DNA of 40,452 nucleotides from Clostridia bacterium (GTDB lineage: Bacteria; Bacillota; Clostridia; Oscillospirales; Acutalibacteraceae). Below, piece after piece: positions 9,815 to 38,555 of the stretch. The stretch is from positions 1-40,452 of the forward strand of contig JAFQRF010000051.1 of assembly GCA_017410195.1 (NCBI GenBank), in the 5' to 3' direction. The stretch's first letter is position 1. Every line of letters starts with the position of its first letter. Below the pieces are notes generated by a model, which saw nothing but the letters and a program-made list of their open reading frames with translations, searched no databases and had not been told where the DNA came from. A program made the position numbers and the translations under genes.

Positions 9815-9816
9815 TT

Positions 9817-11340: not shown

Positions 11341-14300
11341 TTATTCAGACCAAGGTCCGACAAACTTACCGTCCTCACCGAAATCATAATATCCGGGAGT
11401 AAGATGTCCGCAGCCTGTATAGCCTGCGCCGACATAATACTTGCCTACAGCAAGAAGACCGTTACCTCTTACATAATAGTCAGCACCGTCAACAGTGATC
11501 ATACCAAGACCATACTGAATAGCGTCATTTACATAATAGTGAAGATTTCCTTCATCGTCAGCTTTGATTCCTGTAAACGCATTTTCATCAGTCCAGGGTC
11601 CGACAAACTTGCCGTCTTCACCGAAATCATAGTAGCCGGGAGTAAGATGTCCGCAGCCTGTATAACCTGTACCGATGTAATATTTGCCAACAGCAAGAAG
11701 ACCGTTGCCTCTTACATAATAGTCAGCACCGTCAACCGTGATCATACCGAGACCGCTCTGAATTAAATCATTTACATAGTAGTGAAGATTTCCTTCGTCA
11801 TCAGCTTTAATTCCGGTAAACGCATTTTCATCAACCCAAGGTCCGACAAACTTACCGTCTTCACCAAACTCATAGTAACCGGGAGTCAGATGATCGCAGC
11901 CTGTATAGCCTACTCCGATGTAATACTTGCCTACAGCAAGGAGACCGTTGCCTCTTACATAATACTCAGAGCCGTCAAGTGTAATCATACCGAGACCCTT
12001 CTGAATTACATCGTATACATAATAATGAAGATTTCCTTCATCATCTGCTTTGATTCCGGTAAACGCATTTTCATTAATCCAGGGTCCGACAAACTTGCCG
12101 TCTTCACCAAAGTTATAGAAACCGGGAGACAGATGGCTGCAGCCTGTATAACCCTCTCCGATGTAATACTTGCCTACTGCAAGGAGACCGTTGCCTCTTA
12201 CATAATACTGAGCGCCGTCAACAGTAATCATGCCGAGACCCTTCTGAATTACACCGTATACGTAATAATGAAGATCACCTTCGTCATCAGCCTTGATTCC
12301 TGTAAATGCAGTTTCATCAATCCAAGGACCGACAAACTTTGCATCCTCACCGAAATCATAGTATCCGGGTGTAAGATGTCCGCAGCCTGTATAACCTGCA
12401 CCGATGTAATACTTGCCTACCGCAAGGAGACCGTTGCCTCTTACATAATACTGAGCGCCGTCAACGGTAATCATACCGAGACCCATCTGAACAGTACCGT
12501 CAACAAGATAGCAGTAATTTCCTCCGCTTACAGAGAAAATACCTGTTTCATCTTCATAGACCTTGATAAGCTCACCTGTTACATCATCGAAATGATACAG
12601 TTTGTATTCTGCAAAAGCACCGATTCTGACAACCTGATGACCTCTGTAAAGATAGCCGTCCTTATCAAAGCAATATGTCTTTCCATCGATTTCCTGAAGC
12701 ATATTGTTTGACCACTTATAGCAATCGGGACCGTAGAAATACTGAATATTGCCGTCTTCCGTTGTATGCCATACACCGTCTGTCAGATTACCTTCATCAT
12801 CAAATACATATGTGATTCCCGCACAGCTGCCGTTTACAAATTTATATGTACCGGTAATTGCAGTCTTTTCATCCCATCTGAAATAGTTCCAGACACCGTC
12901 AACAAGATACCAGCCGTTCTTTAATTCACCGGAAACAGCATAGCAATAGCCGTTTGCAGCTTCATTGAAGAATTTTCCGGTAAACTTGGTCTGACCTGCG
13001 CAAACGCCGTCTTCACCAAAGTTGTAGTAGTAGCCGTCAACAAGCTTAATACCGGTAAGCATTACGCCGTCTGCCCAGTAGCTGTCAGCAATCCAACCGT
13101 TATTAACAACACCGTCAACATAGGTCTTGCCGTCAGTATAAACACCGTTAAAGAGTTCACCGCAAGCGCACTTGAGAATGCCGTCAGTAAGTTCAAACTT
13201 GTGACCTGTTGCTTCAACAGTCACACCCCAATCGACGGGAGAATCACAGGTTTCGCACCATGTTCTGCCTGTATAACCGTTAGTTGTACAAGTTGCAGCC
13301 TTATCTGCAATAGCGGAAGCGGAATGAACATGATAACTGTGCGAGGTATAATATGCATTGTCATAATCACGCATTCTCAAGCCATAAGTGTAAGAAACGC
13401 AAAGGGTATGAATGTCTTCGCTTGAGAAGGTATGGCTTGTACCGTCAAGGTATGTAACGACACCCATCTCTGTATCAACATCAACAGAAAGCGCAGGAGC
13501 ACAGACGTATTTACAATTCCATGCTTCTACAGCATTAGCATGCTTATGGTCATCACCGGAAACAAATTCCCAAATTCGAACGGGAATGCTTGCAACAACT
13601 GCGGTTCCGCTCTTTGAAAGGTAATCGCTGTTACGTGTGAATTTAACTGTCAAAATATTTTCTGCCTTATCATTTCCCGTTGCAAAGCTATAGTCACAAT
13701 CAAATCCGTAAAGAGTCTCGATATGTTCAAGTTCCCAGTTATTCATACTGTCAAGATCAAGTCTCATTTCAACAGACTTAACAGTTTCAATTGCATCGAC
13801 CTCAACATCAATCCAGTATACCGAATCATTCAGCATATAGATAAGGCTGCTGTCCTGAGGACGAACACGAACTGATTTATCATTATCTTCTGCATTAACA
13901 GTAATCTGACGTTTGATTTCCGAGTAGTTACCGGTCTTATCGCTGATTCCCATGCGAATTGTATGCACTCCGTCAGCAAGAACTGCATCGGAAACGGTAA
14001 TCAGACCGTCAGAATATTCGCAATCAACACTTACACCGTCAATGTAAGTCACCGCAGATGAAGTATCCAAGCCACTTGCATTGTTCGTATTTGTCATATC
14101 TTCGGAAACAATACCGGCGAAATTAACAGTATTTTTGGATACTGTCTGACCGTTCAGCATTGCAGCATCACTCATACCCTCAACCGCATATGTCATTCCC
14201 GAAAAAATGGGCTTTTCACGGTCAGCAACCGCATCAGAATAATCTATAGTAACATCATCAATATAGAATGTGAAGTCACCTGCATAGTTGGTTTCGTTGT

Positions 14301-22593: not shown

Positions 22594-23955
22594 TTATCCA
22601 AGAGGCCTCCAATCTGCCAGCCTGCCTGCTTTTTTCCAAAGCTCCTCTGCTTCTTTTACCCATTCGTCAAATCCGTCGGGAGTTTCAGGGAATTTTTCAT
22701 AAAGCTCGGTTAGCTTGCCGCTGTTGATAACACCGGCAAGAATACTTTTGATTTCGGAGATTTTAATATTACCGGAAACAAGACCGATAACCACAAAAAC
22801 GAGAGTTTTCAGATAATCGGTAATATCGAGCGAAAGCCCTCCGCTCATGCCTGCAAGTATCTTTTTGCTGAAAATAACATCGTGCTTAAACAAAAATTCA
22901 TTTGCCTTCGGGCTGTGTCTGACAATGGAAGCAAGAAGCGCCATAAGACTTGCAAATTCCTTACCCTGGGTATCGTTATATTTTTTATTGATACTCCAAA
23001 GCGATTCTCTTGTGGGATAATTGCCGTTTTCCATAGCCTTTGATGCAATGTCAATTGCAATATCCTCAAGAACAAGCGCAGCAGTACATCCTTCGCCGCA
23101 ATTAGGTTTCGTCATGCATGCGGCATCACCCATACAAATGAATCCGTCCGCAACAAACGAATAAGGCGCTCTGTGGTAAGGAGTTCTTCCTTTTTCAACT
23201 CTTTTTACCTTATGGGCAGGAAGTTTAACATTTCTTGTGAACTGCTCATAGACCTTTTCAACATACTCAAAACCGAAACATGAACCCATGCCGATAATGG
23301 CATCGCTGCCCTTACTCGGCGCAACCCATGATTTATACGCAATCCAGAAATACGATTTCATCCATTCCTCTTTTTTATCGGTAAAATCAACATATCTGAG
23401 TGTTACATAAAGTATGTCATCGGGAGTAAGCTCAAACTTCTCAATGCCGTAGCCGTCGGGCAGACTGCACCTTACAACTGCAGGAATACCGGAGCAATCG
23501 ACAGCAAGACGGCACTCAACGCTTGTCTTTTCTCCGTTTTTCTCATATGTAACACCGCATATTTTTCCGTTTTCATCATAAAGACATTCAATGAAAGATG
23601 CTTCATATACTATCTGTACGCCCGTTTCTTCCGCCCATTCATTCATGCGTACGATATAATCATGCTTATGCATTCCGACAACGGGTGCAGGTGACGGCTT
23701 CGGATATCCGCCGAAAGCAGAATACATATATGACTCTGTGAACTCAAAAGCATATATTCCGTCGCCCTTTTCAACCTTCGGAAGTCCGAAATGCTCCATC
23801 TCATCCTTCCCCATATGAAATATATCGTAATCAGGGCTTATTCTTTCCTTTGTACTTTTGTCAATCATAAGAACAGAAAAGCCTTTTTCCGACATTCTTC
23901 TTGCAAAATAGCTGCCCGCAGTCGATGCACCGACAATAACAATATCATATTTCAT
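22594..23955 (-). CDS. FAD-dependent oxidoreductase, geranylgeranyl-reductase family
   Basis: Starting at the ATG at 23955, which has GAAAGGGG upstream, the product is 453 residues. An ATG ten codons earlier (23985) lacks a ribosome site. The N-terminus holds the dinucleotide-binding MKYDIVIVGASTAGSYFARR motif. A second FAD contact, DGFICMGDAACMTKPNCGEG, lies near residue 287 with the GD motif typical of the geranylgeranyl reductase/p-hydroxybenzoate hydroxylase superfamily. The C-terminus has a hydrophobic patch (TLVFVVIGLVSG). Relatives reduce isoprenoid double bonds or oxidise and hydroxylate small molecules. In an anaerobe a reductive role is likelier. The gene diverges from the plus-strand reductase/glycosidase operon across 150 bases, so shared regulation with it is plausible. 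The substrate is unknown. Confidence 0.8.
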   Translation of the reverse strand: MKYDIVIVGASTAGSYFARRMSEKGFSVLMIDKSTKERISPDYDIFHMGKDEMEHFGLPKVEKGDGIYAFEFTESYMYSAFGGYPKPSPAPVVGMHKHDYIVRMNEWAEETGVQIVYEASFIECLYDENGKICGVTYEKNGEKTSVECRLAVDCSGIPAVVRCSLPDGYGIEKFELTPDDILYVTLRYVDFTDKKEEWMKSYFWIAYKSWVAPSKGSDAIIGMGSCFGFEYVEKVYEQFTRNVKLPAHKVKRVEKGRTPYHRAPYSFVADGFICMGDAACMTKPNCGEGCTAALVLEDIAIDIASKAMENGNYPTRESLWSINKKYNDTQGKEFASLMALLASIVRHSPKANEFLFKHDVIFSKKILAGMSGGLSLDITDYLKTLVFVVIGLVSGNIKISEIKSILAGVINSGKLTELYEKFPETPDGFDEWVKEAEELWKKAGRLADWRPLG

Positions 23956-24047
23956 CGTTATTAATCCCCTTTCGGAATTTTCCATATTAATTATATTTCA
24001 ATACAGAAATTAATTCAAGCATATTTTAATTTTTCAAAAAGAATTGT

Positions 24048-24076
24048 TTGCATTCCGTGCTTCTTTCTGTTATGCT
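24048..24076 (+). promoter_or_regulatory. Candidate promoter of the plus-strand reductase/glycosidase operon
   Basis: TTGCAT (24048-24053), 17 bases, then TATGCT (24071-24076) upstream of the ATG at 24107. The -35 is imperfect. A second TATAAA-like hexamer lies at 24082-24087 without a good partner. The match is moderate. Confidence 0.5.
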
Positions 24077-24106
24077 GATAGTATAAAATTTTCAAGGAAT
24101 GAGAAA

Positions 24107-25324
24107 ATGAAAAATATTTTTGAAAAGCCGATAAAAATCTACGAAAAAGAAATTAAAAACCGAATAGTTATTCATCCGATGGAGGGCTGTGACGGAACTG
24201 CCGAAGGCGCAATTGACGAACTTACAAGACGCCGCTACCACAGATTCGCAAAATCGGGTGCAGGAATAATCTGGTTTGAGGCAACGGCTGTCTGCCCTGA
24301 AGGAAGAGCGAATCCCCGTCAGCTTTTTCTGAATAATAAAACAAAATCAAGCTTCAAAAAATTGATTGATGAAATCCGTGAAATATCATTAAATGAAAAC
24401 GGTTTTGCCCCCGTAATTATAGTTCAGCTTACTCACAGCGGAAGATTCAGCAAGCCGAACGGCACTCCCGAGCCTATAGTTGCCTATCGCAACAGTCATT
24501 GGGAAATCGGTAAGGAAGAACAGCCATATATCATTACAACAGACGAATACTGCCGCCAAATTCCTCAAAGATATTCCGAAGCGGCAAAGCTTGCGGAAGA
24601 GGTTGGATTTGACGGAATTGATATCAAATGCTGCCACGGTTACTTATTCAATGAATTTTTGAGTGCAAAAGAACGTGAAGGCATTTACGGAGGTTCTCTA
24701 GAAAACAGAACAAGGCTTTATTTTGATTGCATCGACAGCGTTAAAAATTCGGTTAAAAACACTTTTGTCACAACAAGACTCAATGCCTGTGACTGTTTCC
24801 CGTATCCTTTCGGATTCGGTGTTGATAAAGAGAATAACATTGACCTTTCCGAAACAAAAATCATCATTCAAAGCCTTGACGAAAAAGGCATTGAGCTGAT
24901 AAACCTTACTCTCGGAAATCCTTATCTTATTCCTCATATCAACCGACCGTGCATCAATGCTCCAGAGGACGGAAAAATCGGCATTAAGCGTATATACGAG
25001 ATCACAAAAGAACTTAACGCTGCTTTTCCCGATATAAAATTTGTTATGTCGGGACTCAGCTTTGAAGGCGAAAATGCACTTGACTACTCGGCAAAAATCA
25101 TCGAAGACTGTGTTGCGGATTTTGCGGGATTCGGCAGAATGGTATTCGCATATCCCGATTTTTATAAAGACTTTATCAGAAACGGCAGACTTGAAAAGAA
25201 TAAAGTATGCCTTAAATGCAGCAAATGCTCTCAGCTGATGAGAAATGCAAGCGTTGCAGGCTGTCCGGTCAGGGACAGCGAAGTTTACATGCCGTATTAT
25301 CGGAAACATGTACTTAAGAAATGA
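24107..25324 (+). CDS. Old Yellow Enzyme-family NADH:flavin oxidoreductase, short Fe-S form
   Basis: The ATG at 24107 has AAGGA eight bases upstream; the open frame extends further 5' but without a ribosome site. The 405-residue product is an FMN-binding TIM barrel, with NRIVIHPMEGCDGTAEG near residue 18, VQLTHSGRFSKP near 106, and CCHGYLFNEFLS near 175, where Tyr179 matches the catalytic Tyr region of 2,4-dienoyl-CoA reductase. YGGSLENRTRL is at 194. Near the end CLKCSKCSQ and GCPVRD give Cys368, 371, 374 and 386 (C-x2-C-x2-C-x11-C), a likely 4Fe-4S site as in dienoyl-CoA reductase, BaiCD and daidzein reductase. Those enzymes continue for about 250 residues with an FAD/NAD(P) domain, which is absent here. 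The protein should reduce a conjugated C=C, taking electrons from a partner protein. Confidence 0.85.
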   Translation: MKNIFEKPIKIYEKEIKNRIVIHPMEGCDGTAEGAIDELTRRRYHRFAKSGAGIIWFEATAVCPEGRANPRQLFLNNKTKSSFKKLIDEIREISLNENGFAPVIIVQLTHSGRFSKPNGTPEPIVAYRNSHWEIGKEEQPYIITTDEYCRQIPQRYSEAAKLAEEVGFDGIDIKCCHGYLFNEFLSAKEREGIYGGSLENRTRLYFDCIDSVKNSVKNTFVTTRLNACDCFPYPFGFGVDKENNIDLSETKIIIQSLDEKGIELINLTLGNPYLIPHINRPCINAPEDGKIGIKRIYEITKELNAAFPDIKFVMSGLSFEGENALDYSAKIIEDCVADFAGFGRMVFAYPDFYKDFIRNGRLEKNKVCLKCSKCSQLMRNASVAGCPVRDSEVYMPYYRKHVLKK

Positions 25325-25334
25325 GGAATCGGAA

Positions 25335-26072
25335 ATGGTTGCGATTATAACAGGCGGCAGCAGAGGAATAGGTCTCGGCATAACCGAAACGCTGCTTCAA
25401 AACGGATTTAATATCATTGTCGCTTCAAGAAATAAAAGTGAAAAAATCGAAGAATTAATCCAAAGTTATCCCGATAAAATTGATTTTATCGCTGCTGATA
25501 TTTCAAAAAGCGAAGATATTGAAACACTTACGGCATTTACTGAAAAAAAATACGGCAAAATTGATTTGCTTGTCAATAACGCAGGCGTTGCACCTAAAAT
25601 ACGCAAAGACATCCTTGAAATAACTCCAGATGATTTTGATTTTGTTGCCGATATCAACCTCAAAGGAACATTTTTCGTTACTCAGAAGCTCGTTCCTTTG
25701 ATGATTAAAAATGAGCATTCAAGAATTGTTAACATCTCTTCAATGTCTGCATATACCGCATCGGTCAACCGAGGGGAATACTGTATTTCAAAAGCAGGAA
25801 TTTCAATGATAACAAAGCTTTTCGCATCCCGACTTGCCGAATACGGAGTAAGCGTTATTGAAATACGACCCGGCATTATCGAAACGGATATGACGGCAAA
25901 GGTGAAAGAAAAATACGATAGGCTTATCAGCGAAGGAATAACACCGATAAAAAGAATGGGGCAGCCCGAGGATATCGCAAAATGCGTGCTTTCAGTTGCC
26001 AACGGAAATTTCGATTTCTGCACAGGTACGGTCATTGACTGCGACGGAGGATTCAGCGTAAGAAGATTATGA
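25335..26072 (+). CDS. Short-chain dehydrogenase/reductase (FabG-like)
   Basis: The ATG at 25335 has GAGGAA upstream and lies 10 bases after the previous stop. The 245-residue protein is a classical SDR: TGGSRGIG at residues 6-13 binds the cofactor, NNAG is at 81-84, INLKGTFF at about 107, the catalytic Ser is in NISSMSA (135/136), and Tyr149 and Lys153 form YCISK. RPGIIETDM follows. Classical SDRs interconvert ketones and secondary alcohols with NAD(P)H. FabG of fatty-acid synthesis, hydroxysteroid dehydrogenases and dihydrodaidzein reductase all share this architecture, so substrate cannot be read off directly. Its last bases overlap the flavoprotein start by four (ATGA). The context of reductases and a glycosidase favours an aglycone or sugar-derived ketone. 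Confidence 0.87.
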   Translation: MVAIITGGSRGIGLGITETLLQNGFNIIVASRNKSEKIEELIQSYPDKIDFIAADISKSEDIETLTAFTEKKYGKIDLLVNNAGVAPKIRKDILEITPDDFDFVADINLKGTFFVTQKLVPLMIKNEHSRIVNISSMSAYTASVNRGEYCISKAGISMITKLFASRLAEYGVSVIEIRPGIIETDMTAKVKEKYDRLISEGITPIKRMGQPEDIAKCVLSVANGNFDFCTGTVIDCDGGFSVRRL

Positions 26073-27868
26073 GAAAAGTTTACGATGCAATAATTATCGG
26101 CAGCGGTGCAGCAGGCTACAGCGCCGCAGACTGGCTGTTCAAAGAAGGCATAACAAATATTGCCGTTGTCACCGAAAACAGACTTTCCGGCACATCAAGA
26201 AACACCGGCAGCGACAAACAGACCTACTATAAAATATCCATGGACGGAAGCTCTGATGACAGCCCTTACAGAATGGCAAAAGATATCTGCTCACTCGGCT
26301 CATGCGACGGAGAAAAAGCATATACACAAGCTCTCAACAGCGCAAAATGCTTTCTGCGACTTTGCGATTACGGAGTCAGATTTCCGCAGGACGAATTTGG
26401 CGGATATCCCGGCTATAAAACCGACCATGATAACACAACAAGAGCAACCTCCGTCGGTCCGCTGACATCAAAAATCATGACTCAGGTGCTTGAAAAAAGA
26501 GTTCTTGAAATCAATAAAACTCCTCTGCTTGACAACAGACAGGTTATTGAAATCATCACCGACAATAACCGTGTTCACGGTATTGCCGTGCTTAATAAAG
26601 AAACAAATTCAACAGAAGTTATCGCTGCAAAAAACATTATTGCGGCAACCGGAGCACCCGCATGTATCTATAAAAACTCGGTTTATCCCGAATCACAGCA
26701 CGGAATGACCGGAATCCTTCTGAAAGCAGGTGTAAAGCTCTGTAACTTTACGCAATGGCAGTACGGATTAGCCTCAACAGACTTCCGCTGGAATGTCTCG
26801 GGGAGCTTCATGCAGGTCATTCCGAGGTTCGTGAGTGTTGACAAAAACGGTGCGGAAAACGAATTTCTGAGCAAACACTTCCCAAGTGTTTCCGAAACAT
26901 GTAACAACGTTTTCCTGAAAGGGTATCAATGGCCGTTCAGTTTCGACAGAATCCCTTATTCTTCAAGGATTGACGTCGCTGTTCACGAAGAAATTAGCAA
27001 TGATAAAACCGTTTATCTTGACTTCACAAAAAACCCCGAAGGATACGATTTTGACGCTCTTTCAAGCGAAGCAAAAGAGTATCTTAAAGCCAACGGAGCG
27101 ACAGCTGAAACACCGATTGAAAGACTGAAGCTCTTAAATCCAAAAGCGATTGATGTTTACTCCTGTCAAGGCATAAACCTTTACACTCAAAAGTTAAAAA
27201 TTGCCGTTTGCGCACAGCATAACAACGGCGGAATTGACACCGACCGTAACTATAAGACAAGCATTGACGGACTATATGTTATCGGAGAAGCAGCCGGTTC
27301 CTTCGGTCTTGCCCGACCCGGCGGGACAGCACTTAACGACACTCAGGTCGGCGGACTTATATGTACACGGCACATAAAAAGCAATTCTTATTCTCAAATA
27401 TCATTTAATGCAATTGAAAATGCGGAAAAGCGCATAAACGAAGGCTTAAACGGATTTGAAATCAGCAATGAGATCAGCTATGAACGTATTCCCGAAAAAA
27501 TGAGCGAATGTGCGTCGTTTCTCAGAGATAAAAACGGCTGCGTTTCCCTGCTTTCGGAAATAAACGGAATACTGAGCAGCTATCCCCTGCGGCATAAATC
27601 GCTCAGTGATTATTTCCGTGATTTTGACATGCTTCTCTCTGCAAAAGCTCTGCTTGAAACAATTCTTGCTGAAATGCCGCTGACCGGCAGCAGAGGCGGT
27701 TCTGTTTTCATTGACAACGATAAAATAATAAAAGAAAACAAGGAATACAGAAATTATCTTACCGTAACAGACGGCTCCGGAATCGTTTTTAAAAAAGTTA
27801 AACCAATCCCCGTAACAGACAAACCGTTTGAATCATATTTGAATACAATTCAGGAATGTGAATTATAA
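26069..27868 (+). CDS. Fumarate-reductase/succinate-dehydrogenase-like flavoprotein
   Basis: A 599-residue flavoprotein with an N-terminal FAD motif (IIIGSGAAGYSAADWL, residues 8-23). A second FAD contact is NGGIDTDRNYKTSIDGLYVIG near 387, followed by RPGGTALNDTQVGG, and there is a C-terminal helical domain. By position Arg300, His384 and Arg416 correspond to the catalytic Arg/His residues of FrdA-type enzymes. The His that binds FAD covalently in FrdA is replaced (TSRNTGSDKQ near 42), so FAD is probably non-covalent. The QFHPT dicarboxylate motif is also missing; NFTQWQYG stands there. The substrate is therefore unlikely to be fumarate or succinate. Related stand-alone enzymes include tetrahydrodaidzein reductase, ketosteroid dehydrogenases and urocanate reductase. 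No haem or FMN electron-input domain is visible. It is coupled at its start to the SDR by a four-base overlap. Confidence 0.84.
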   Translation: MRKVYDAIIIGSGAAGYSAADWLFKEGITNIAVVTENRLSGTSRNTGSDKQTYYKISMDGSSDDSPYRMAKDICSLGSCDGEKAYTQALNSAKCFLRLCDYGVRFPQDEFGGYPGYKTDHDNTTRATSVGPLTSKIMTQVLEKRVLEINKTPLLDNRQVIEIITDNNRVHGIAVLNKETNSTEVIAAKNIIAATGAPACIYKNSVYPESQHGMTGILLKAGVKLCNFTQWQYGLASTDFRWNVSGSFMQVIPRFVSVDKNGAENEFLSKHFPSVSETCNNVFLKGYQWPFSFDRIPYSSRIDVAVHEEISNDKTVYLDFTKNPEGYDFDALSSEAKEYLKANGATAETPIERLKLLNPKAIDVYSCQGINLYTQKLKIAVCAQHNNGGIDTDRNYKTSIDGLYVIGEAAGSFGLARPGGTALNDTQVGGLICTRHIKSNSYSQISFNAIENAEKRINEGLNGFEISNEISYERIPEKMSECASFLRDKNGCVSLLSEINGILSSYPLRHKSLSDYFRDFDMLLSAKALLETILAEMPLTGSRGGSVFIDNDKIIKENKEYRNYLTVTDGSGIVFKKVKPIPVTDKPFESYLNTIQECEL

Positions 27869-27884
27869 GAAAGGCGGCAAATTT

Positions 27885-29966
27885 ATGGATTATATCAAAG
27901 CATCGGAATTATACCGCAAGAATCCTACCGAAGAAGTGCTTCGCAGCGTAACCGAAGAGCTTGTAAAAGAAATGACCCTTAAAGAAAAAATTCGCATGAT
28001 GCAGGGACATGCAATGGCTGTAACTGCAAAAAACTTTCTTAAAAACGGCAGATTTTATAATGCTGAACCTTATGCTGCAGGCGGCTGCAAAAGGCTCGGA
28101 ATACCCGAAGTGCTTTTCTCGGACGGTCCGAGAGGAGTTGTTCTCGGTAAAAGCACATGTTTTCCCGTATCAATGCTCAGAGGTGCAACCTTCGACGATG
28201 GACTTGAATACAAAGTGGGAGAAGTTTTTGCAAAAGAAGCAAGCGCAGGCGGCGCAAATCTTTTTGCAGGTATCTGCATTAATCTTCTTAGAAACCCGAT
28301 GTGGGGCAGAGCGCAGGAAACCTACGGAGAAGACCCGTTTCTGCTCGGCAAAATGGGCGTTGCTCTCACAAAAGCAATGCAGGATAACGGCATAATCGCC
28401 TGCCCGAAGCATTATGCGCTCAACAGCATTGAGGATTTGCGTTTCAGCGTTGATGCAAAGGCAGATGAAAGAACTCTTCACGAAGTATATCTTCCGCATT
28501 TCAAAAAGTGCATTGATGCAGGTGCAATGTCAATAATGGGTGCTTACAATAAATTTAACGGCACTTATTGCTGCGAAAGCAAAGTACTTCTCACCGATAT
28601 TCTCCGCAACAAATGGGGCTTCGACGGATTTACCATATCCGACTTTTTCTTCGGAATTTATGATTCTGCAAGAAGCGTAAATGCAGGTCTTGACATTGAG
28701 ATGCCGTATACTTTCAAATATGCTTTTCTTGCAAACAGAGTAAAAAAAGGTGATGTTTCCGAAGAAATGATCAATATCTCCGTCGGAAGAATATTGAGAG
28801 CTATGCTCAGAACTCTGCCGAAGCATAAGAAATATCCCAAAAATGTTATCCTTTCAAAAGAACATACCGACCTTGCAAGAGAGGTTGCCGCAAAGGGTAC
28901 GGTTCTTCTCAAAAACAAAGATAATGTACTTCCTTTAAAGGAAGGCGAAAGCATTGCAGTTGTCGGCAGATACGCAGATAAAATCAATACGGGTGACCAC
29001 GGCAGCAGCAATGTTTTCAGCCCGTACACAATCACCCCTTATCAGGGACTTAAAAAGCGATTCGGAGCGCAGAATGTCGCTCTTTATAACGGCTGCAATC
29101 CTCAAAAGGCGATTGCCGCCTCGGCCTACAGCGATTATGTTGTTATCTGCGTCGGAAGCGACTGGCTTCAGGAGGGTGAATTTCTCGTAAATCTCGGCAA
29201 CGTTAAGAAAAAGCCCAAAGGTTCGGGCGGCGACAGAGTTGACCTTCGTCTGCCCGAAGAGGATGTTGCTCTCATTAAAGCGTTATCAAAAACAGGCAAA
29301 AAAATCATCGTAAACATAATGGGCGGCAGTGCTTATGTTATCAACGAGTGGACAGATTGCGCCGATTCCGTTCTTATGTCTTTCTACAGCGGAATTGAGG
29401 GCGGAAACGCACTTGCAGATATCCTCAGCGGTGACAGAAACCCTGCGGGAAAGCTTCCATTTACAATTGCAAAAAAAGACGACGACTATCCCGATTTTCT
29501 TCATATCGGCGCAAAGAACAAAGAAATCGAATACGGGTATTATCACGGATACACTCTCTTTGATAAAAAGGATATTGTACCCGATTATCCCTTCGGCTTC
29601 GGTCTTTCTTACACAGAATTTGAAATCGGCAAAACCGAAATCAGCCAAAGCGAAAACGGTATTCATGTATGTACGGATGTTAAAAACACAGGCAGCTGCG
29701 ACGGAGATGAGGTCATTCAGATTTATATCGGCAGCAATAACAAGGAAATTGACAGACCCGTCAAGCTACTCAAAGGATTTAAACGCATAGGCGTTGCGGC
29801 ATCAAAGACAGAAACAGTAAACATTGACATTGATATTAATGACCTTAAATTCTATGACCCCGAAAGCGGTGAATGGATGCTCGACAACGAATATACCGTT
29901 TATATCGGCACGGACAGCAGAAATGCCGCTGCCTCCGGTAAAATATCATTCCGAGGTGAAGCATGA
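27885..29966 (+). CDS. Glycoside hydrolase family 3, beta-glucosidase type
   Basis: The ATG at 27885 with AAAGGCGG eight bases upstream is preferred over an upstream in-frame ATG overlapping the previous gene. The product has 693 residues. The N-terminal TIM barrel has LFSDGPRGV near 78 and CPKHYALNS near 173 (Lys175-His176, the sugar-binding pair). WGFDGFTISDFFF places the nucleophile at Asp253. The alpha/beta sandwich follows (VLLKNKDNVLPLKEGESIAVVG near 330) with KKPKGSGGDRVDLRLP near 440, and a fibronectin-III-like C-terminal domain begins with SYTEF. There is no signal peptide, so it acts in the cytoplasm on an imported small glycoside rather than on polymer. GH3 enzymes of this form mostly remove beta-glucosyl, and sometimes xylosyl or other, units from oligosaccharides or plant glycosides. 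Its place behind three reductases suggests aglycone release. Confidence 0.9.
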   Translation: MDYIKASELYRKNPTEEVLRSVTEELVKEMTLKEKIRMMQGHAMAVTAKNFLKNGRFYNAEPYAAGGCKRLGIPEVLFSDGPRGVVLGKSTCFPVSMLRGATFDDGLEYKVGEVFAKEASAGGANLFAGICINLLRNPMWGRAQETYGEDPFLLGKMGVALTKAMQDNGIIACPKHYALNSIEDLRFSVDAKADERTLHEVYLPHFKKCIDAGAMSIMGAYNKFNGTYCCESKVLLTDILRNKWGFDGFTISDFFFGIYDSARSVNAGLDIEMPYTFKYAFLANRVKKGDVSEEMINISVGRILRAMLRTLPKHKKYPKNVILSKEHTDLAREVAAKGTVLLKNKDNVLPLKEGESIAVVGRYADKINTGDHGSSNVFSPYTITPYQGLKKRFGAQNVALYNGCNPQKAIAASAYSDYVVICVGSDWLQEGEFLVNLGNVKKKPKGSGGDRVDLRLPEEDVALIKALSKTGKKIIVNIMGGSAYVINEWTDCADSVLMSFYSGIEGGNALADILSGDRNPAGKLPFTIAKKDDDYPDFLHIGAKNKEIEYGYYHGYTLFDKKDIVPDYPFGFGLSYTEFEIGKTEISQSENGIHVCTDVKNTGSCDGDEVIQIYIGSNNKEIDRPVKLLKGFKRIGVAASKTETVNIDIDINDLKFYDPESGEWMLDNEYTVYIGTDSRNAAASGKISFRGEA

Positions 29967-31003
29967 AACAAAGCATGTATTCACCCGATGACTTTATGAA
30001 CGGCATATATGATAAGCTTCGTGCCGAACCATATAAGAATATAGCAACCGAAGACACTGCACTTGAAGTCGGTGAAATAATCCGAAAGAAAACCGAACAG
30101 GTTTTGAATATCAGCAAACTGAGAAATCTTTCATCGGAATTTAATCCCGTTCCCGTCGGCAAAAAACTCGAATGCCCCGAATACTCACTTCAAAAATACA
30201 GTTTTGAATTATGCGAGGGGCTTTCAACTTCTGTTTACATTCTTACTCCGAAGAAAATTAAAAAGCCCGCTCCGGGAGTTGTTGCACTCTGCGGTCACGG
30301 CTACGGAGTAAGACAAATACTGAATATAACAAAAAGAGGAAATAAAAAACTCATCCCGTACATTGACAATTACCAAAAAAATTTCGCCGTTGAGCTTGCA
30401 AAAAGAGGATGCATCGTTGCGGCACCCGAGCTTTTCGGATTCGGTGAGGCAAGACTGAAAAAAGATCTTATCAAGCCTTTCTACATAAGCTCGTGTGATG
30501 AGCTTTCACATCATCTTCTCCCATACGGGCTGACGGTTGCATCGGTAAGAGTTTTTCAGGCAATCGCTTGTGCGGAAATACTGTTAAAAAATGAAAATGT
30601 TGATTCCGAAAAGCTCTCGTGCATGGGGATTTCGGGCGGCGGACTGACTGCGCTTTACGCCTCGGTTATTGATAAAAGATTCAAAAAAACTGTTATCAGC
30701 GGATATATCAACACATTCCGTGACAGCATTCTTTCTCTCTGGCATTGCCCTGATAACTATATTCCCGGTATGCTTAATATCGGAGAAATATACGACTTTG
30801 CTTCGAGCCTTGCTCCGAGAGAGCTTCTGATTGAATCAGGTAAAAAGGATAAACTTTTTCCGATTGAATCAAGCATCAAGGCTCATAAGGAAGTTGAAAG
30901 GATTTATTCACTTGTCGGTGCGTCGGACAAACTGACAATTGATATTTTCAACGGTAAACACAGCGTAAGCGGAGCAAAATCATTTGATTTTCTTGCAAAA
31001 TAA
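29963..31003 (+). CDS. Alpha/beta-hydrolase esterase (dienelactone hydrolase/acetyl-xylan-esterase-like)
   Basis: A 346-residue cytoplasmic protein with no signal peptide. A helical N-terminal region of about 75 residues precedes an alpha/beta-hydrolase core. The core shows CGHGYGVRQIL near 110, CMGISGGGLTALYAS with nucleophile Ser224, ESGKKDKLFP with Asp296 and FNGKHSVSG with His333, a full catalytic triad. The long N-terminal extension and GHGYG loop resemble the Abhydrolase_7/acetyl-xylan-esterase-like group, whose members remove acyl groups from sugars or plant phenolics. Its ATG overlaps the GH3 stop by four bases, so the two are translated together. An acylated glycoside (acetyl-, malonyl- or cinnamoyl-type) would need both enzymes. 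That is inference from context. Confidence 0.8.
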   Translation: MKQSMYSPDDFMNGIYDKLRAEPYKNIATEDTALEVGEIIRKKTEQVLNISKLRNLSSEFNPVPVGKKLECPEYSLQKYSFELCEGLSTSVYILTPKKIKKPAPGVVALCGHGYGVRQILNITKRGNKKLIPYIDNYQKNFAVELAKRGCIVAAPELFGFGEARLKKDLIKPFYISSCDELSHHLLPYGLTVASVRVFQAIACAEILLKNENVDSEKLSCMGISGGGLTALYASVIDKRFKKTVISGYINTFRDSILSLWHCPDNYIPGMLNIGEIYDFASSLAPRELLIESGKKDKLFPIESSIKAHKEVERIYSLVGASDKLTIDIFNGKHSVSGAKSFDFLAK

Positions 31004-31049
31004 AAAAATATGTCTTACGGTAAAATCAAACCGTAAGACATATTTTTTT
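31002..31049. terminator. Bidirectional intrinsic terminator
   Basis: A perfect 19-bp stem (arms at 31002-31020 and 31031-31049, core TGTCTTACGG/CCGTAAGACA) with a ten-base loop has A-runs on one side and T-runs on the other. It ends the plus-strand operon and, read the other way, the convergent lipase gene whose stop is at 31060. Confidence 0.93.
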
Positions 31050-31059
31050 GATAGACCTA

Positions 31060-33327: not shown

Positions 33328-34803
33328 ATGTATATGGAAAATTATGAATTTTGGTTTGTGGTCGGCAGTCAGTTTCTCTACGGACCCGAAGTACTTGACA
33401 CCGTTGCCGCAAGAGCGGAAGAAATGGCAGAGAAGATGAACGCAAGCGGACTTCTTCCCTGCAAAGTTGTTTATAAAGTTACAGCAAAAACAAGCGAAGA
33501 AATATCAAAGGTTGTTAAAGAAGCCAATTTTGACGACAAATGCGCAGGTATCATCACCTGGATGCACACATTCTCTCCCTCAAAGATGTGGCTCAATGGT
33601 CTTAAGGAGCTTCAGAAGCCTTACTGCCATTTTGCAACACAGTATAACCGTGATATCCCCAACGAAGAAATTGACATGGACTTCATGAACCTCAACCAGG
33701 CGGCTCACGGCGACAGAGAACACGGCTTCATCGCTGCAAGACTGCGCACTCCCAGAAAAGTTATTATGGGCTACTGGCAAGACGAAAAGGTTCTTGCAGA
33801 GCTTGGCAAATGGATGCGCTCGGCAGTCGGTGCGGCATTCTCAAAGGGACTCAAGGTTATGCGTTTCGGCGATAACATGAGGAACGTTGCCGTTACCGAA
33901 GGTGATAAAGTCGGCGTTCAGGAGCAGCTCGGCTGGGAAGTCAACACGTGGCCCGTCGGCACACTCGTTGAATACATCAATGCCGTAACAGATGCCGAGG
34001 TTGATGCTCTTATGGCTGAATACGCAGAGAAATATGACTTTGCGACAGATAATCTTGACGCTGTACGATATCAGGCTAAAGAAGAAATTGCAATGAAGAA
34101 AATGCTCGATGAGCAGGGCTGCAAGGCATACACAAACACATTTGAGGATCTCCACGGAATGGAGCAGCTTCCCGGTCTCGCAAGCCAGCGACTTATGGAG
34201 CAGGGCTACGGCTACGGCGGTGAAGGCGACTGGAAAGTATCCGCAATGACTGCAATCCTCAAGGCTATGACCGAGGGTATGAACGGCGGCTCTGCATTTA
34301 TGGAGGATTATACATATAATCTCGCACCCGGTGCGGAATATTCGCTCGGCGCTCATATGCTCGAAGTCTGCCCCACACTTGCGGCAGATAAGCCCAGAAT
34401 CGAAGTTCATCCGCTCGGAATCGGAGGCAAGGGCGACCCTGCAAGACTTGTTTTTGAAGGCAAAGAAGGCTCGGCTGTTGTTGTCAGCCTGATTGACATG
34501 GGCGGCAGACTGAGAATGATTTGTCAGGATATCGAATGTGTTAAACCAATCCTTCCCATGCCCAACCTCCCCGTTGCAAGAGTTATGTGGAGAGCAATGC
34601 CCGACCTTTGCACCGGCGCAAAATGCTGGATTATCGCAGGCGGCGCACATCACACCGTACTTTCATATGATGCTGACGCAGAGATGCTCCGCGACTTTGC
34701 ACGCATTATGAACATTGAATTTGTTCACATTAATAAAGACACAACTCCCGAAGGTCTTGAAAACGAACTCTTCCTCAATGACCTTGCATGGAAACTTAAA
34801 TAA
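33328..34803 (+). CDS. araA: L-arabinose isomerase
   Basis: The 491-residue product has the normal length for AraA and the family blocks throughout. It opens EFWFVVGSQFLYGPE. The metal and catalytic residues of the E. coli enzyme are all matched: Glu326 in SAFMEDYTY, Glu346 in GAHMLEVCP, His361 in IEVHPLGIGGKGDP and His442 in IAGGAHHTVLS. It converts L-arabinose to L-ribulose in the cytoplasm; D-galactose to D-tagatose is the usual side reaction. The first ATG is chosen because AAGGA is nine bases upstream, while the next ATG two codons on is too far. The gene has its own promoter and terminator. No ribulokinase, epimerase, arabinosidase or arabinose transporter lies in the window, so the rest of the pathway must be elsewhere. 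Confidence 0.96.
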   Translation: MYMENYEFWFVVGSQFLYGPEVLDTVAARAEEMAEKMNASGLLPCKVVYKVTAKTSEEISKVVKEANFDDKCAGIITWMHTFSPSKMWLNGLKELQKPYCHFATQYNRDIPNEEIDMDFMNLNQAAHGDREHGFIAARLRTPRKVIMGYWQDEKVLAELGKWMRSAVGAAFSKGLKVMRFGDNMRNVAVTEGDKVGVQEQLGWEVNTWPVGTLVEYINAVTDAEVDALMAEYAEKYDFATDNLDAVRYQAKEEIAMKKMLDEQGCKAYTNTFEDLHGMEQLPGLASQRLMEQGYGYGGEGDWKVSAMTAILKAMTEGMNGGSAFMEDYTYNLAPGAEYSLGAHMLEVCPTLAADKPRIEVHPLGIGGKGDPARLVFEGKEGSAVVVSLIDMGGRLRMICQDIECVKPILPMPNLPVARVMWRAMPDLCTGAKCWIIAGGAHHTVLSYDADAEMLRDFARIMNIEFVHINKDTTPEGLENELFLNDLAWKLK

Positions 34804-34845: not shown

Positions 34846-36051
34846 TTATTTATCAAGAACGTCCAATGCTTCGGGAAAGAGTTCAATGCTTCTTTTGAGT
34901 ATTCCGTGCATATGTGCAATTGCGATTCCATAGTTTGTCATCGGAACTGCATTATCCTTTGCCTGACCCGCTCTGTACTGCATTTCACGGTTATTGAGCA
35001 TACAGCCTCCGCAATGGATAACAAGCGAATATTTCAACAAATCCTCGGGAAAATCCTTGCCGCTTGTGAACTCAAATTCAATGTTTTTATTTGTATGATT
35101 TCTGACCCAATTCGGCATTTTGACTGTACCGATATCGTTGCACTGTCTGTGATGAGTACAGCCCTCGGAAATGAGAACAGCATCGCCGTCTTTAAGTTTA
35201 TCAAGCTGCGCTGCGCCGTGAACAGCAGCAGTCAGATCGCCCTTATATCTTACAAAAAGAATTGAAAATGAAGTCAGCGGAATATCGGCAGGCGTATCTT
35301 TTGATACTCTGCCGAATGCCTGTGAATCGGTTATTACAAGCTTCGGCTTTTTACCCAGAGAAGCGAGTGTTGATTTAAGCTCGGTATCGCGGCAGACAAC
35401 CGCAACCGCTCCGCTTTCGATAACCTCACGGATAACCTGCTGCTGCGGAAGAATAAGCCTGCCCTTGGGCGCAGATTCATCAATCGGAACAACGAGAACA
35501 ACCAAATCATTCGGCTCGATGAGGTCAGCAACAATCTTTTTGCCGCTCTCCCACCCTTTTGCTGTTTGTGCAATCATTTCCTTGAGTTCTCTTATGTTTG
35601 TTCCGTTTGTTGCGCTGACATATATTGAATTTTCATTTTTTTCGGGAATATTTTCAAGCAAATCGGCTTTGTTATATGCGATAACATGGCTGATTTTTTT
35701 ATTTTTAAACGCAGAAATCAGGTCTCTGTCTGCAGACTGCAGACCCTTTGATGCATCAACAACAAGAACGGCAATATCACAGTAATTAAGCGCCTGCTTT
35801 GCACGTTTCACACGCATTTCACCAAGCTCGCCCTCATCGTCAATACCGGGAGTATCGATGATAACAACAGGACCCAGAGGCAGAAGCTCCATTGCCTTTT
35901 TGACGGGATCGGTTGTTGTGCCTTTGACATCGGAAACAAGCGAAAGGCTCTGACCCGTGACGGCATTAACAACGCTTGATTTGCCCGCATTGCGCAAGCC
36001 AAAAAATCCGATGTGAATTCTTTCGGCGGAAACAGTTCCATTAAGACTCAT
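34846..36051 (-). CDS. hydF: [FeFe]-hydrogenase H-cluster maturation GTPase HydF
   Basis: The ATG at 36051 has AGGAG six bases upstream and gives 401 residues, the usual HydF length. A start 29 codons further up would run into hydG. The N-terminal GTPase domain has GLRNAGKSSVVNA (P-loop), DVKGTTTDP (switch I), IDTPGIDDEGELG (switch II) and AYNKADL (NKxD). The C-terminal scaffold domain has SEGCTHHRQCND and VIHCGGCMLN, giving the Cys/His and HCxxC ligands of its Fe-S cluster. HydF carries the di-iron precursor made with HydE and HydG and delivers it to apo-hydrogenase. It follows hydG by ten bases and is last in the operon. Confidence 0.96.
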   Translation of the reverse strand: MSLNGTVSAERIHIGFFGLRNAGKSSVVNAVTGQSLSLVSDVKGTTTDPVKKAMELLPLGPVVIIDTPGIDDEGELGEMRVKRAKQALNYCDIAVLVVDASKGLQSADRDLISAFKNKKISHVIAYNKADLLENIPEKNENSIYVSATNGTNIRELKEMIAQTAKGWESGKKIVADLIEPNDLVVLVVPIDESAPKGRLILPQQQVIREVIESGAVAVVCRDTELKSTLASLGKKPKLVITDSQAFGRVSKDTPADIPLTSFSILFVRYKGDLTAAVHGAAQLDKLKDGDAVLISEGCTHHRQCNDIGTVKMPNWVRNHTNKNIEFEFTSGKDFPEDLLKYSLVIHCGGCMLNNREMQYRAGQAKDNAVPMTNYGIAIAHMHGILKRSIELFPEALDVLDK

Positions 36052-36061
36052 AAAAATCTCC

Positions 36062-37510
36062 TCAGAATCTGAAATCTCTGCGGTTTGAAGCTTTGATATC
36101 TTCAATATTCTTTTCCGCAATCGCTCTGACTTTCTCACCCGGAATCTTTTTCAATTCATTTTTAATCATTTCAAAACCGATTTTCTTGGTTTCTTCGCTT
36201 GCGTAGTCGACAAGATATTCGGTAAGAGTCATAAGTGCGTTGGGATGGCAGCAATTAAGAATCTGACCGTTCTTGCAAAGCATCATAAATCTGTCGCCGG
36301 TTCTTCCCTCTCTGTAACATGCGGTACAGAATGAGGGGATGTGCTTGAGTTCCATAAGCCAGCGTACAACCTCGTCAAGAGTTCTCTGGTCGGAAACATC
36401 AAACTGCTCGGAATCATGGGGTCTTTCTTCTTCGGTATAGCCGCCGACAGATGTTCTTGATGCGCCGCTTATCTGTGAGATACCGAGACGGAGTGCTCTG
36501 CCTCTGACGGCTTCCGATTCACGTGTTGAGATAATCATTCCCGTATAAGGAACAGCAATTCTTATGCAAGCAATAAGCTTTTCAAAAAGGTCATCCGCAA
36601 GACCGTTGTCAAATGCGTCGGGGTCGATGTCATCAGCTCTCTTGAGTCGGGGTACGCTGATTGTGTGAGGACCGACACCGTGAACCGCTTCAAGATGCTC
36701 CGCATGCATCATAAGACCTGCAAATTCATATTTATAAAGCTCAAGACCGAAAAGCACGCCGAGACCGACGTCATCAATTCCGCCTTCCATCGCTCTGTCC
36801 ATAGCTTCGGTATGATAGTCATAGTCGTGCTTGGGTCCTGTAGGATGAAGCTTGAGATAGCTTTCCTTGTGATAGGTTTCCTGGAAAAGAATATATGTGC
36901 CGATTCCTGCATCCTTGAGCTTACGGTAGTTTTCAACGGTTGTTGCAGCGATATTAACGTTAACACGGCGGATTGCACCGTTTTTGTGGTTAACGCTGTA
37001 AATTGTTTTGATACATTCAAGGATATACTCAATGGGATTGTTAACGGGATCTTCGCCTGCTTCGATTGCAAGGCGCTTATGACCCATATCCTGAAGTGCG
37101 ATAACTTCTTTTCTTACTTCTTCCTGGGTGAGTTTCTTGCGTGCAATATGCTTGTTCTTAAGGTGATAAGGGCAGTAAACACAGCCGTTGACACAGTAGT
37201 TTGAAAGATAAAGAGGGGCAAACATAACGATTCTGTTGCCGTAGAAAGCCTGCTTGATTTCCTCTGCAAGCTTCATCATTTCTTCAACCTTTTCGGGGAT
37301 ATCGCAAGCAAGAAGAACGGATGCTTCTCTGTGAGTAAGACCTGCGCAGGTTGTTCCCTCCGCAGTTCTCTTTGGACGTGCCTTTTCGAGAATACTGTCG
37401 ATAAGCTCAACATTATGCTTATTCTGCTCTGCATATTCTATTGTTGCAAGAATTTCTTCGTGATTGATAAATTCCTCTGCTTTGAGTGATTTGGGATTAT
37501 AAACTGCCAT
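36062..37510 (-). CDS. hydG: [FeFe]-hydrogenase maturase HydG (radical SAM tyrosine lyase)
   Basis: The 482-residue protein is a ThiH-like radical SAM enzyme. APLYLSNYCVNGCVYC near residue 98 carries the C-x3-C-x2-C SAM cluster. Near the C-terminus IPSFCTACYREGRTGDRF and LNCCHPNAL give the C-x2-C-x22-C site for the auxiliary cluster with the dangler iron, the feature that separates HydG from ThiH. HydG splits tyrosine into p-cresol and dehydroglycine to supply the CO and cyanide ligands of the H-cluster. Its ATG lies one base after the hydE stop, with AAAGGAAA inside the end of hydE as ribosome site, so translation is coupled. Confidence 0.97.
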   Translation of the reverse strand: MAVYNPKSLKAEEFINHEEILATIEYAEQNKHNVELIDSILEKARPKRTAEGTTCAGLTHREASVLLACDIPEKVEEMMKLAEEIKQAFYGNRIVMFAPLYLSNYCVNGCVYCPYHLKNKHIARKKLTQEEVRKEVIALQDMGHKRLAIEAGEDPVNNPIEYILECIKTIYSVNHKNGAIRRVNVNIAATTVENYRKLKDAGIGTYILFQETYHKESYLKLHPTGPKHDYDYHTEAMDRAMEGGIDDVGLGVLFGLELYKYEFAGLMMHAEHLEAVHGVGPHTISVPRLKRADDIDPDAFDNGLADDLFEKLIACIRIAVPYTGMIISTRESEAVRGRALRLGISQISGASRTSVGGYTEEERPHDSEQFDVSDQRTLDEVVRWLMELKHIPSFCTACYREGRTGDRFMMLCKNGQILNCCHPNALMTLTEYLVDYASEETKKIGFEMIKNELKKIPGEKVRAIAEKNIEDIKASNRRDFRF

Positions 37511-37511
37511 A

Positions 37512-38555
37512 TCAATTTCCTTTCTTATGATTACCGATATTTGTTACTATTTTATATCCTATCGCTTTCATTTTTTCTTCAAGCATACGCTTGTTTGCAG
37601 CCGCTTCCGCACCGCTTGAAAGCTTGTTATTATAAAGTGTATATTTCTTTTTTGCATCCTCCGGCGAAAGATTCGGCATAACAATGTTTGCTCCCGCAAG
37701 AATTCCCTTTTCTCTTCCGATAGGGTCAATCGAACCGAGTGCAGTTGTTGCAGGAAGAAGAATATCGGGAGAAATCAGTCTTATTATCGAGAGAAGATAA
37801 CAAGTCAGCTCAACACTGCCTGTGGGATAATCTTTGAATATCGTATCCTTATGCGGAATAAACGGACCGATTCCGCACATTTCGGGTTTGAATTCTTCAA
37901 TAAATTTCAGGTCTTTTGCAATGGTTTTATTCGTCTGATACGGTGAACCGACCATAAATCCGCATCCCGTCTGAAATCCGAGTTTTTTGAGATTTTTTAA
38001 GCACTCCATGCGGTTGTCAAATGACAGATCCGAAGGATGAAGTTTTTCATAATGCTCTTTGTCAGCTGTTTCATGACGGAGGAGATATCTGTCTGCGCCT
38101 GCTTTGCGGAGTTTTTCATAGCTTTCAAAGCTTCTCTCACCGAGAGAAAGAGTTACCGCACAGTCAGGATATTTTGATTTTATTGAATTAATTACTTCAC
38201 ACACATAATCATCGGTAAAAAATGCATCCTCACCGCCCTGCAAAACAAAGGTTCTGAAGCCGAGAGGGTAACCTTCATCGCAGCACGAAAGTATCTGTTC
38301 ATTTGTCAGTCTGTACCGCTCGCAGTTTTTGTTGCCTCTGCGGATTCCGCAGTAATGACAGTCTTTTTTGCAGATGTTGGATATTTCTATTAATCCTCTG
38401 ATATAAACATCATTTCCGTAAACTTCTTTTCGCTTTTTAACAGCCTTTTCGGCAAGAAATTTCGCGGCTTCTTCGTTTCGGTTTTCAATCAGGAATTCAT
38501 ATTCGTCAAGGGTCAACCCACGCTCTTTTTCGAGCTTATTAATTAACTCAATCAT
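37512..38555 (-). CDS. hydE: [FeFe]-hydrogenase maturase HydE (radical SAM)
   Basis: A 347-residue radical SAM protein related to BioB. The SAM-cluster motif ISNICKKDCHYCGIRRGN (C-x3-C-x2-C) is at about residues 58-75, followed by RTFVLQGGEDAFFTDD and the GIGPFIPHKDTIF segment typical of HydE. HydE works with HydG on the organometallic precursor that yields the dithiolate-bridged di-iron site. The ATG overlaps the end of the upstream small gene by eight bases, implying coupled translation. Order, spacing and orientation with hydG and hydF confirm the identity; PylB, a similar enzyme, is excluded by this context. Confidence 0.95.
   Translation of the reverse strand: MIELINKLEKERGLTLDEYEFLIENRNEEAAKFLAEKAVKKRKEVYGNDVYIRGLIEISNICKKDCHYCGIRRGNKNCERYRLTNEQILSCCDEGYPLGFRTFVLQGGEDAFFTDDYVCEVINSIKSKYPDCAVTLSLGERSFESYEKLRKAGADRYLLRHETADKEHYEKLHPSDLSFDNRMECLKNLKKLGFQTGCGFMVGSPYQTNKTIAKDLKFIEEFKPEMCGIGPFIPHKDTIFKDYPTGSVELTCYLLSIIRLISPDILLPATTALGSIDPIGREKGILAGANIVMPNLSPEDAKKKYTLYNNKLSSGAEAAANKRMLEEKMKAIGYKIVTNIGNHKKGN

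Follow-up and report, generated by a model that had tools for sequence, protein, structure and literature searches.

The window analysed here is a whole stretch of 40,452 nucleotides (nt) from the Clostridia bacterium assembly GCA_017410195.1 (contig JAFQRF010000051.1, positions 1 to 40,452 of the forward strand; our contig C45 of a 2.36 Mb genome in 88 contigs). The element in question is a compact five-gene operon, encoding an Old Yellow Enzyme (OYE)-family oxidoreductase, a short-chain dehydrogenase/reductase (SDR), a fumarate-reductase-like flavoprotein (FRD), a family 3 glycoside hydrolase (GH3) and an alpha/beta-hydrolase (esterase), and the first three of these genes are referred to below as the trio (Table 1). 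Reading frames and Pfam searches bore out the five genes, their classes and their order as given in an initial annotation made from the sequence alone, and all four junctions described there (10 nt, a 4-nt overlap, 16 nt and a 4-nt overlap) were found as claimed. The strong terminator placed behind the operon was recovered as a stable hairpin, which is absent from the list of a terminator pattern scan and has no separate U tail because its A and T runs pair. The single promoter that had been proposed was not recovered: a scan for sigma-70-type sites gave none on the + strand from 23985 to 24107, and the region yielded as many promoters as shuffled sequences do (15 versus 15.9). By eye, neither the GH3 nor the esterase has a signal peptide, in agreement with the cytoplasmic location suggested for both.

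Table 1. Features of the operon and its surroundings in the window (aa, amino acids; FMN, flavin mononucleotide; Fe-S, iron-sulphur; FAD, flavin adenine dinucleotide)
Feature	Position	Strand	Evidence
OYE-family FMN/Fe-S oxidoreductase, 405 aa	24107..25324	+	Pfam Oxidored_FMN 5e-32
Classical SDR, 245 aa	25335..26072	+	Pfam adh_short_C2 7e-54
FRD-like FAD flavoprotein, 599 aa, full-length fumarate reductase/succinate dehydrogenase A fold	26069..27868	+	Pfam FAD_binding_2 3e-20
GH3 glycosidase, 693 aa	27885..29966	+	Pfam GH3 N and C domains 2e-40 and 3e-49
Alpha/beta-hydrolase (esterase), 346 aa	29963..31003	+	Pfam Abhydrolase_7 3e-6, weak but above cut-off
Intrinsic-terminator-like hairpin	31001..31050	+	-25.8 kcal/mol, z -10.7 versus shuffles
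Geranylgeranyl-reductase-like flavoprotein, divergent from the operon	22594-23985	-	
HydF, then two radical-SAM genes; probably a hydrogenase maturation cluster	34846-38555	-	HydF by Pfam

Conservation of the trio and of the GH3-esterase pair

A search with FRD gave 79 loci, 29 of them in the window's clade (L005-L031, L039 and L074) and 50 elsewhere. A class-wide sample of 391 Clostridia genomes contained 64 with FRD at E 1e-60 or better, eight of which have a divergent form, and neighbourhoods were read for 60 of these 64 hits (G000, G289, G062 and G150 were left out). A locus was counted as flanked when at least 3.5 kb lay on both sides, a trio was counted when OYE and SDR were both within 6.5 kb of FRD, and a genome was called FRD-positive on the presence of FRD alone. 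The closest FRD relatives belong to metagenome-assembled genomes (MAGs) of Clostridia, many of them titled as herbivore hindgut, and within the window's genus the distribution is patchy (13 of 37 genomes at E <1e-150).

In the window's clade, OYE and SDR were both within 6.5 kb of FRD in 26 of the 29 loci, with GH3 in 19 and the esterase in 17 (trio 23, GH3 15 and esterase 15 of the 25 flanked loci); the three loci without both OYE and SDR were one cut by a contig end (L021), one with the SDR only (L017) and one with neither (L028). The fullest order was OYE-SDR-FRD-(GPH symporter)-(AP_endonuc_2)-(2-hydroxyacid dehydrogenase)-GH3-esterase, with GH3 directly 3' of FRD in the window, L006, L024, L027, L029 and L074, and such recurrence of gene order in relatives is more than chance. 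Across the class sample the trio was present in 40 of 60 loci, in 31 of the 39 flanked loci and in 31 of the 35 flanked loci with FRD above 500 bits, and all three genes were on one strand in 30 of 31 trios, whereas no GH3 or esterase was detected by our own profiles in those 35 flanked, strong-FRD loci (0/35). The trio also occurs in spirochaetes and planctomycetes, and was found in 23 of the other 50 loci of the FRD search. The operon looks like two units, an old OYE-SDR-FRD module and a GH3-esterase addition of one clade; judged by distribution, the redox genes are older than their link with the hydrolases.

The trio itself varies in places. L214 (6269-11386) has a divergent FRD with a dihydroorotate-dehydrogenase-like gene in the place of OYE, then LacI-like and Zn-alcohol-dehydrogenase-like genes (both by eye). 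A Zn-alcohol dehydrogenase near FRD where no SDR was seen (L164, L213 and, by eye, L214) suggests that the carbonyl step can be swapped. As a separate observation, L125 (7755-13348) has a distant FRD paralogue preceded by a pair of 2-oxoacid:ferredoxin oxidoreductase genes and, by eye, an ACT-like gene.

The GH3 has SDF at residues 252-254, which we take to be the nucleophile motif; its best PDB matches are beta-glucosidases and its top NCBIfam score, below cut-off, is against a beta-xylosidase model. The esterase has GISGG with S224, and S224, D296 and H333 were invariant in 16 aligned sequences. Esterase relatives of at least 45% identity occurred in 10 of 60 genomes, all ten FRD-positive, which upholds the earlier claim of a conserved gene unit; these ten include the window's own genome, and in two of them (G025 and G041) FRD is on another contig. 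GH3 relatives of at least 70% were found in 9 of the 60 genomes, eight of them FRD-positive (G036 is not), and relatives of 53-57% in 16 genomes of the genus without FRD. FRD at E <1e-100 was present in 15 of the 60, and shared ancestry inflates all of these co-occurrence counts. An esterase relative also lies 5' of OYE in L033. In L005, the nearest relative of the window, a 153-aa open reading frame directly after FRD (11784-12245) has by eye the look of a GH3 C-terminal remnant, and this locus has apparently lost the GH3-esterase part.

The three redox proteins

Alongside its Oxidored_FMN domain, the window OYE carries PMEGCDG at residue 24, KCCHGYL at residue 174 and CX2CX2CX11C from residue 368, and among 94 OYEs scoring above 400 with our own profile the corresponding motifs are near-general (KxCHxY in 91, MEGxD in 89 and the Fe-S motif in 93). 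The OYE family has a His/His or His/Asn substrate pair; in alignment with YqjM, Lys174 of the window OYE stands at the first active-site His, His177 matches the second and Tyr179 is retained, leaving Lys174/His177 in place of either family pair. The protein ends soon after the Fe-S motif with no C-terminal NAD(P)H domain (five OYEs of the class sample are long enough to have one), and its SdhA-like partner is one candidate electron donor.

The SDR has its TGGSRGIG and YCISK motifs intact, and scores above the cut-off of NCBIfam NF009386 (PRK12745) and below the cut-offs of the FabG models among the matches listed.

The predicted structure of FRD (predicted local distance difference test, pLDDT, 90.5) matched FrdA/SdhA over its full length (template modelling, TM, score 0.73, best hit E 1.8e-30) and flavocytochrome c3 with a TM score of 0.48, and it includes the C-terminal helical domain of the SdhA/FrdA/NadB superfamily. 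Its best profile models are NadB, TfrA and SdhA. The family has motifs of its own (GSDKQTYYK, FLKGYQWPF, H384-x-NGG and R416-PGG), in which H384 and R416, invariant in 19/19 sequences together with many further residues, align with the His/Arg pair that binds the substrate in L-aspartate oxidase; by this alignment FRD keeps the carboxylate-binding His and Arg of the superfamily.

These properties bear on the pathways to which the operon had at first been likened. DZNR-type OYEs of the equol pathway have a C-terminal NAD(P)H/FAD domain, and the flavoprotein of that pathway is of the THDR class. The equol likeness drew little support, as the window OYE lacks the DZNR-type domain and FRD has a full-length FrdA fold. 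The bile-acid likeness failed on the OYE, a one-domain protein that reaches 96.3 bits against a BaiCD cut-off of 825 in a model of 642 positions. With the OYE under that cut-off and FRD NadB/SdhA-like, both analogies were dropped.

Sugar-acid and heparinase-family neighbours

Some neighbours of the trio point to uronate catabolism ending in 2-keto-3-deoxygluconate (KDG). The planctomycete order is OYE-SDR-KDPG aldolase-BNR_4-FRD-KDG-kinase-like gene (KDPG, 2-keto-3-deoxy-6-phosphogluconate), with the OYE fused to a GltD-like domain in several cases (Pfam shown for L067) and with KDG kinases, below their cut-offs, as the best models of the sugar kinase. The BNR_4 protein had no PDB relative at E 0.01, and an MtnA-like gene of these clusters, which passes methylthioribose-phosphate isomerase cut-offs, was taken as a bystander. 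Two members of the window's genus have aldolase-like and kinase-like genes directly 5' of OYE-SDR-FRD (own profiles). An aldolase and a kinase are beside the trio in L160, L186 and L189, and an aldolase with a weak kinase hit in L197; L202 reads SDR-FRD-heparinase-family protein-aldolase/kinase fusion, L205 has an aldolase between OYE and SDR, and L165 and L210 have a kinase-like gene at the locus. The pairing of KDG kinase with KDPG aldolase was accordingly seen in several lineages, with kinases below NCBIfam cut-offs.

Heparinase-family or PL35-like genes, which are predicted lyases, were found in several relatives and not in the window's operon. One lies between OYE and SDR in L183, others are in the clusters of L184, L036, L038 and L033, and L201 combines the trio with a dehydrogenase, AP_endonuc_2, a sorbose/Aga-type phosphotransferase system (PTS) and a heparinase-family protein. 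L033, from horse faeces, reads esterase-OYE-SDR-FRD-AP_endonuc_2-PL35-cluster gene-GH127-like gene, the last with a sub-threshold match to GH88, the family of unsaturated glucuronyl hydrolase (UGL); this was the GH88 match seen in trio clusters, the neighbours of L201 and L202 being annotated in part. The L181 cluster includes the glucuronate isomerase UxaC. In the window's clade a PL35-like gene is nearby on the opposite strand in 11 of 29 loci, and the window's genome encodes a 69% relative at another site. Several uronate glycans are substrates of PL35 enzymes (PMC12088678).

Statistics across genomes were in line with these neighbours. Five of 60 genomes have KDPG aldolase (PF01081) at a distance of 6 kb or less from FRD, where 0.50 would be expected (Poisson P 2e-4; 60 of the 64 FRD-positive genomes, with G399, G407, G412 and G421 left out). 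The heparinase and KduI tests used 40 of the 64 (eight divergent, eight fragmentary and eight of 69-88% completeness were dropped). The heparinase C-terminal family PF07940 was within 6 kb of FRD in 6 of these 40 against 0.54 expected (2e-5), an expected number that is slightly low because the scored candidates of genome G107 were only 30 out of 38; the heparinase-family gene of L201 (genome G407) was missed by the PF07940 search. PF07940 was present in 28 of the 40 FRD-positive genomes and in 6 of 40 FRD-negative controls, which were taken by number and unmatched for lineage or genome size (Fisher 1e-6).

Other features were noted at these loci and in the window. An AP_endonuc_2 and 2-hydroxyacid dehydrogenase pair lies away from the trio in the window's genome (L117, 10070-11844). 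A protein of about 566 aa, alike by eye and with no significant Pfam match, is near the trio and a 2-hydroxyacid dehydrogenase in L184 (12477-14177), L186 (3901-5601) and L189 (11189-12886), and a protein of 643 aa with a secreted look, encoded across from the operon at some loci, had no PDB relative and no convincing Pfam match. The geranylgeranyl-reductase-like gene was rejected as a sixth operon member, as among the fetched neighbourhoods relatives were found in L005 (84%) and L033 (39%) only. The two radical-SAM genes after HydF are presumably HydG and HydE. The window also encodes an L-arabinose isomerase 2.3 kb 3' of the operon (33328-34803, + strand), an MmgE/PrpD family enzyme adjoining a putative anion transporter by eye (8552-11205, - strand), possibly a small carboxylate operon, and a protein of 1666 aa that by eye is secreted and whose C-terminal repeats are long and near-identical (11341-16341, - strand).

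Proposed chemistry and comparison with known systems

We consider it fairly probable that OYE-SDR-FRD is a conserved module for sugar-acid breakdown. In trio clusters with uronate partners, OYE, SDR and FRD occupy the place where the steps between lyase and KDG kinase would be expected, and we infer the substrate class, the product and all reaction steps of the trio, which would make KDG, or a compound close to it, out of uronates that are modified or released by lyases. It is possible, if doubtful, that the trio leads from unsaturated uronides to KDG by a flavin-based route not described before, in place of UGL and KduI/KduD in several phyla; no description of the module was found in the open-licence literature as judged by titles and abstract openings. 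In the chemistry that we prefer, itself a tentative proposal, OYE would reduce the C4=C5 enoate of an unsaturated uronide, SDR would then reduce the C1 aldehyde, and FRD would finally oxidise the resulting 3-deoxyaldonate at its C2 hydroxyl to KDG, its electrons returning to the Fe-S cluster of OYE. The C2 oxidation has a parallel in succinate dehydrogenase, which can turn malate into oxaloacetate. Such a route would bypass UGL and KduI/KduD with the same net redox balance as the known one. In the window's clade the trio would have recruited the GH3 and esterase, probably for the removal of a sugar and an acyl group from oligosaccharides taken up by the cell.

Besides the unmatched controls, several observations weigh against the sugar-acid reading and the route proposed for it. 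Conservation in FRD of the Arg that is catalytic in fumarate reductase is not clear, in a region that aligns poorly and often has Lys/Arg, and the SDR scores below the KduD equivalog cut-offs (159.7 against 369 and 153.8 against 338.9). The planctomycete aldolase and all scored kinases fall below NCBIfam cut-offs. A minority of loci have sugar-acid neighbours, 9 of the 60 in the class sample by profile and at least 15 with Pfam-confirmed extras (L181, L183 and L184, and by positions L166, L169 and L173, with neighbours annotated in part), and at many loci FRD has unrelated genes next to it. In the window's clade no profile hit to an aldolase or a kinase was obtained within 6.5 kb of FRD (0/29), and the window's genome has its KDPG aldolase, KduI, PL35-like and AP_endonuc_2 genes on other contigs. 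One of the five close KDPG aldolase-FRD pairs is at 5.8 kb, and a single genus supplies three of the six close heparinase-FRD pairs. The trio holds together less well beyond the clade (11 of 21 flanked loci of the FRD search), and two archaeal MAG loci have SDR and FRD without OYE. The GH3 and esterase are atypical of glycosaminoglycan clusters. KduI is not depleted where FRD occurs (18/40 versus 12/40, p 0.25; PF04962, used for this count, may also take in IolB, we assume), and a simple replacement of KduI by the trio was rejected on that ground.

The initial annotation proposed that the cell imports a plant glycoside, perhaps acylated, removes its acyl group and its sugar and uses the aglycone as an electron sink, with OYE, SDR and FRD as the reductases. 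This pathway suits a GH3 and esterase that are apparently cytoplasmic, tightly packed with the trio and co-occurring with it, and OYE and FRD families can reduce activated alkenes. We judge it quite improbable, as the trio predates its link with the GH3 and esterase by distribution (0/35 class-sample loci outside the clade have them), its recurrent partners in other lineages include sugar-acid enzymes and heparinase-family genes, the OYE is far under the BaiCD cut-off and FRD is not of the flavocytochrome-c type. No recognised aromatic, terpenoid or steroid enzyme was seen among the neighbour proteins that were annotated, which are part of the whole. AP_endonuc_2 genes, which 22 of the 29 clade loci and 12 of the 60 class loci have, with Gfo/Idh/MocA genes near several trios, would instead fit a non-hydrolytic glycoside pathway, in which a sugar is oxidised at C3, an AP_endonuc_2 TIM-barrel enzyme breaks the glycosidic bond by elimination and OYE and SDR reduce the enone and ketone; TIM-barrel eliminases acting on 3-keto O- and C-glycosides are a precedent (PMC10628242). 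This too is unlikely, since it leaves the KDPG aldolase and KDG-kinase-like genes unexplained, and AP_endonuc_2 is absent from the window's operon and many trio loci and is often paired with a 2-hydroxyacid dehydrogenase gene, also away from the trio.

A third alternative keeps the uronate and changes its kind: the trio would handle a blocked uronate such as 4-O-methylglucuronate from xylan, to which the normal isomerase-dehydratase route is closed, and the xylan side chain would be the target of the GH3 and esterase. The mention of herbivore hindgut in the titles of close relatives, the beta-xylosidase model as top GH3 score (below cut-off) and a URO-D family gene between FRD and KDPG aldolase in L160 are consistent with this, the URO-D family including methyltransferases. 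The URO-D gene is a single case, however, the best PDB matches of the GH3 are beta-glucosidases, heparinase-family neighbours suit unsaturated uronates better and the trio is also found in planctomycetes and spirochaetes, so that we hold this alternative to be highly unlikely.

Gut Clostridia, spirochaetes and planctomycetes all have the trio, which at some loci is beside heparinase-family and Entner-Doudoroff genes. Solving its role would fill a gap in bacterial use of acidic polysaccharides of host and plant and give a function to OYE, SDR and FRD-like genes now placed by superfamily alone, and might reveal a flavin-to-Fe-S electron loop in sugar catabolism.

Set beside the closest known systems, the trio would be a form of uronate or sugar-acid catabolism. 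With the equol (DZNR, DHDR, THDR) and bile-acid (BaiCD, BaiH) pathways it shares the same three broad enzyme classes, and it differs in its one-domain OYE, NadB/SdhA-type FRD and sugar-acid neighbours, as compared by domain architecture, fold and the BaiCD model. SdhA/FrdA and L-aspartate oxidase have the full-length fold (TM ~0.73) and the carboxylate-binding His and Arg aligned with those of FRD, whereas FRD has about 15-19% identity to them and invariant motifs of its own, and the window's operon has no SdhB-type gene.

FlRed belongs to the SDR class. PMC4306948 reports it as a 4-deoxy-L-erythro-5-hexoseulose uronate (DEH) reductase from an alginate user. The pathway of alginate users (FlRed, KdgK, Eda) is alike in having a reductase 5' of KDG kinase and KDPG aldolase, but the trio adds an Fe-S OYE and a fumarate-reductase-type flavoprotein, and its SDR falls in PRK12745, an NCBIfam family other than KduD. 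Glycosaminoglycan clusters, as PMC6045597 describes them, comprise a lyase, an importer, UGL, DhuI/DhuD or KduI/KduD, KdgK and KdgA, with UGL called universal. The window's operon differs from them in having only the GH3 and esterase besides the trio, and no KduI match was found at the FRD locus in the 40 FRD-positive genomes. What flanks the trio in some lineages recalls the clusters of streptococci and lactobacilli: a sorbose/Aga-type PTS (L201), heparinase-family genes, a KDG-kinase-like gene and KDPG aldolase, with OYE, SDR and FRD standing about where those clusters have UGL and KduI/KduD.

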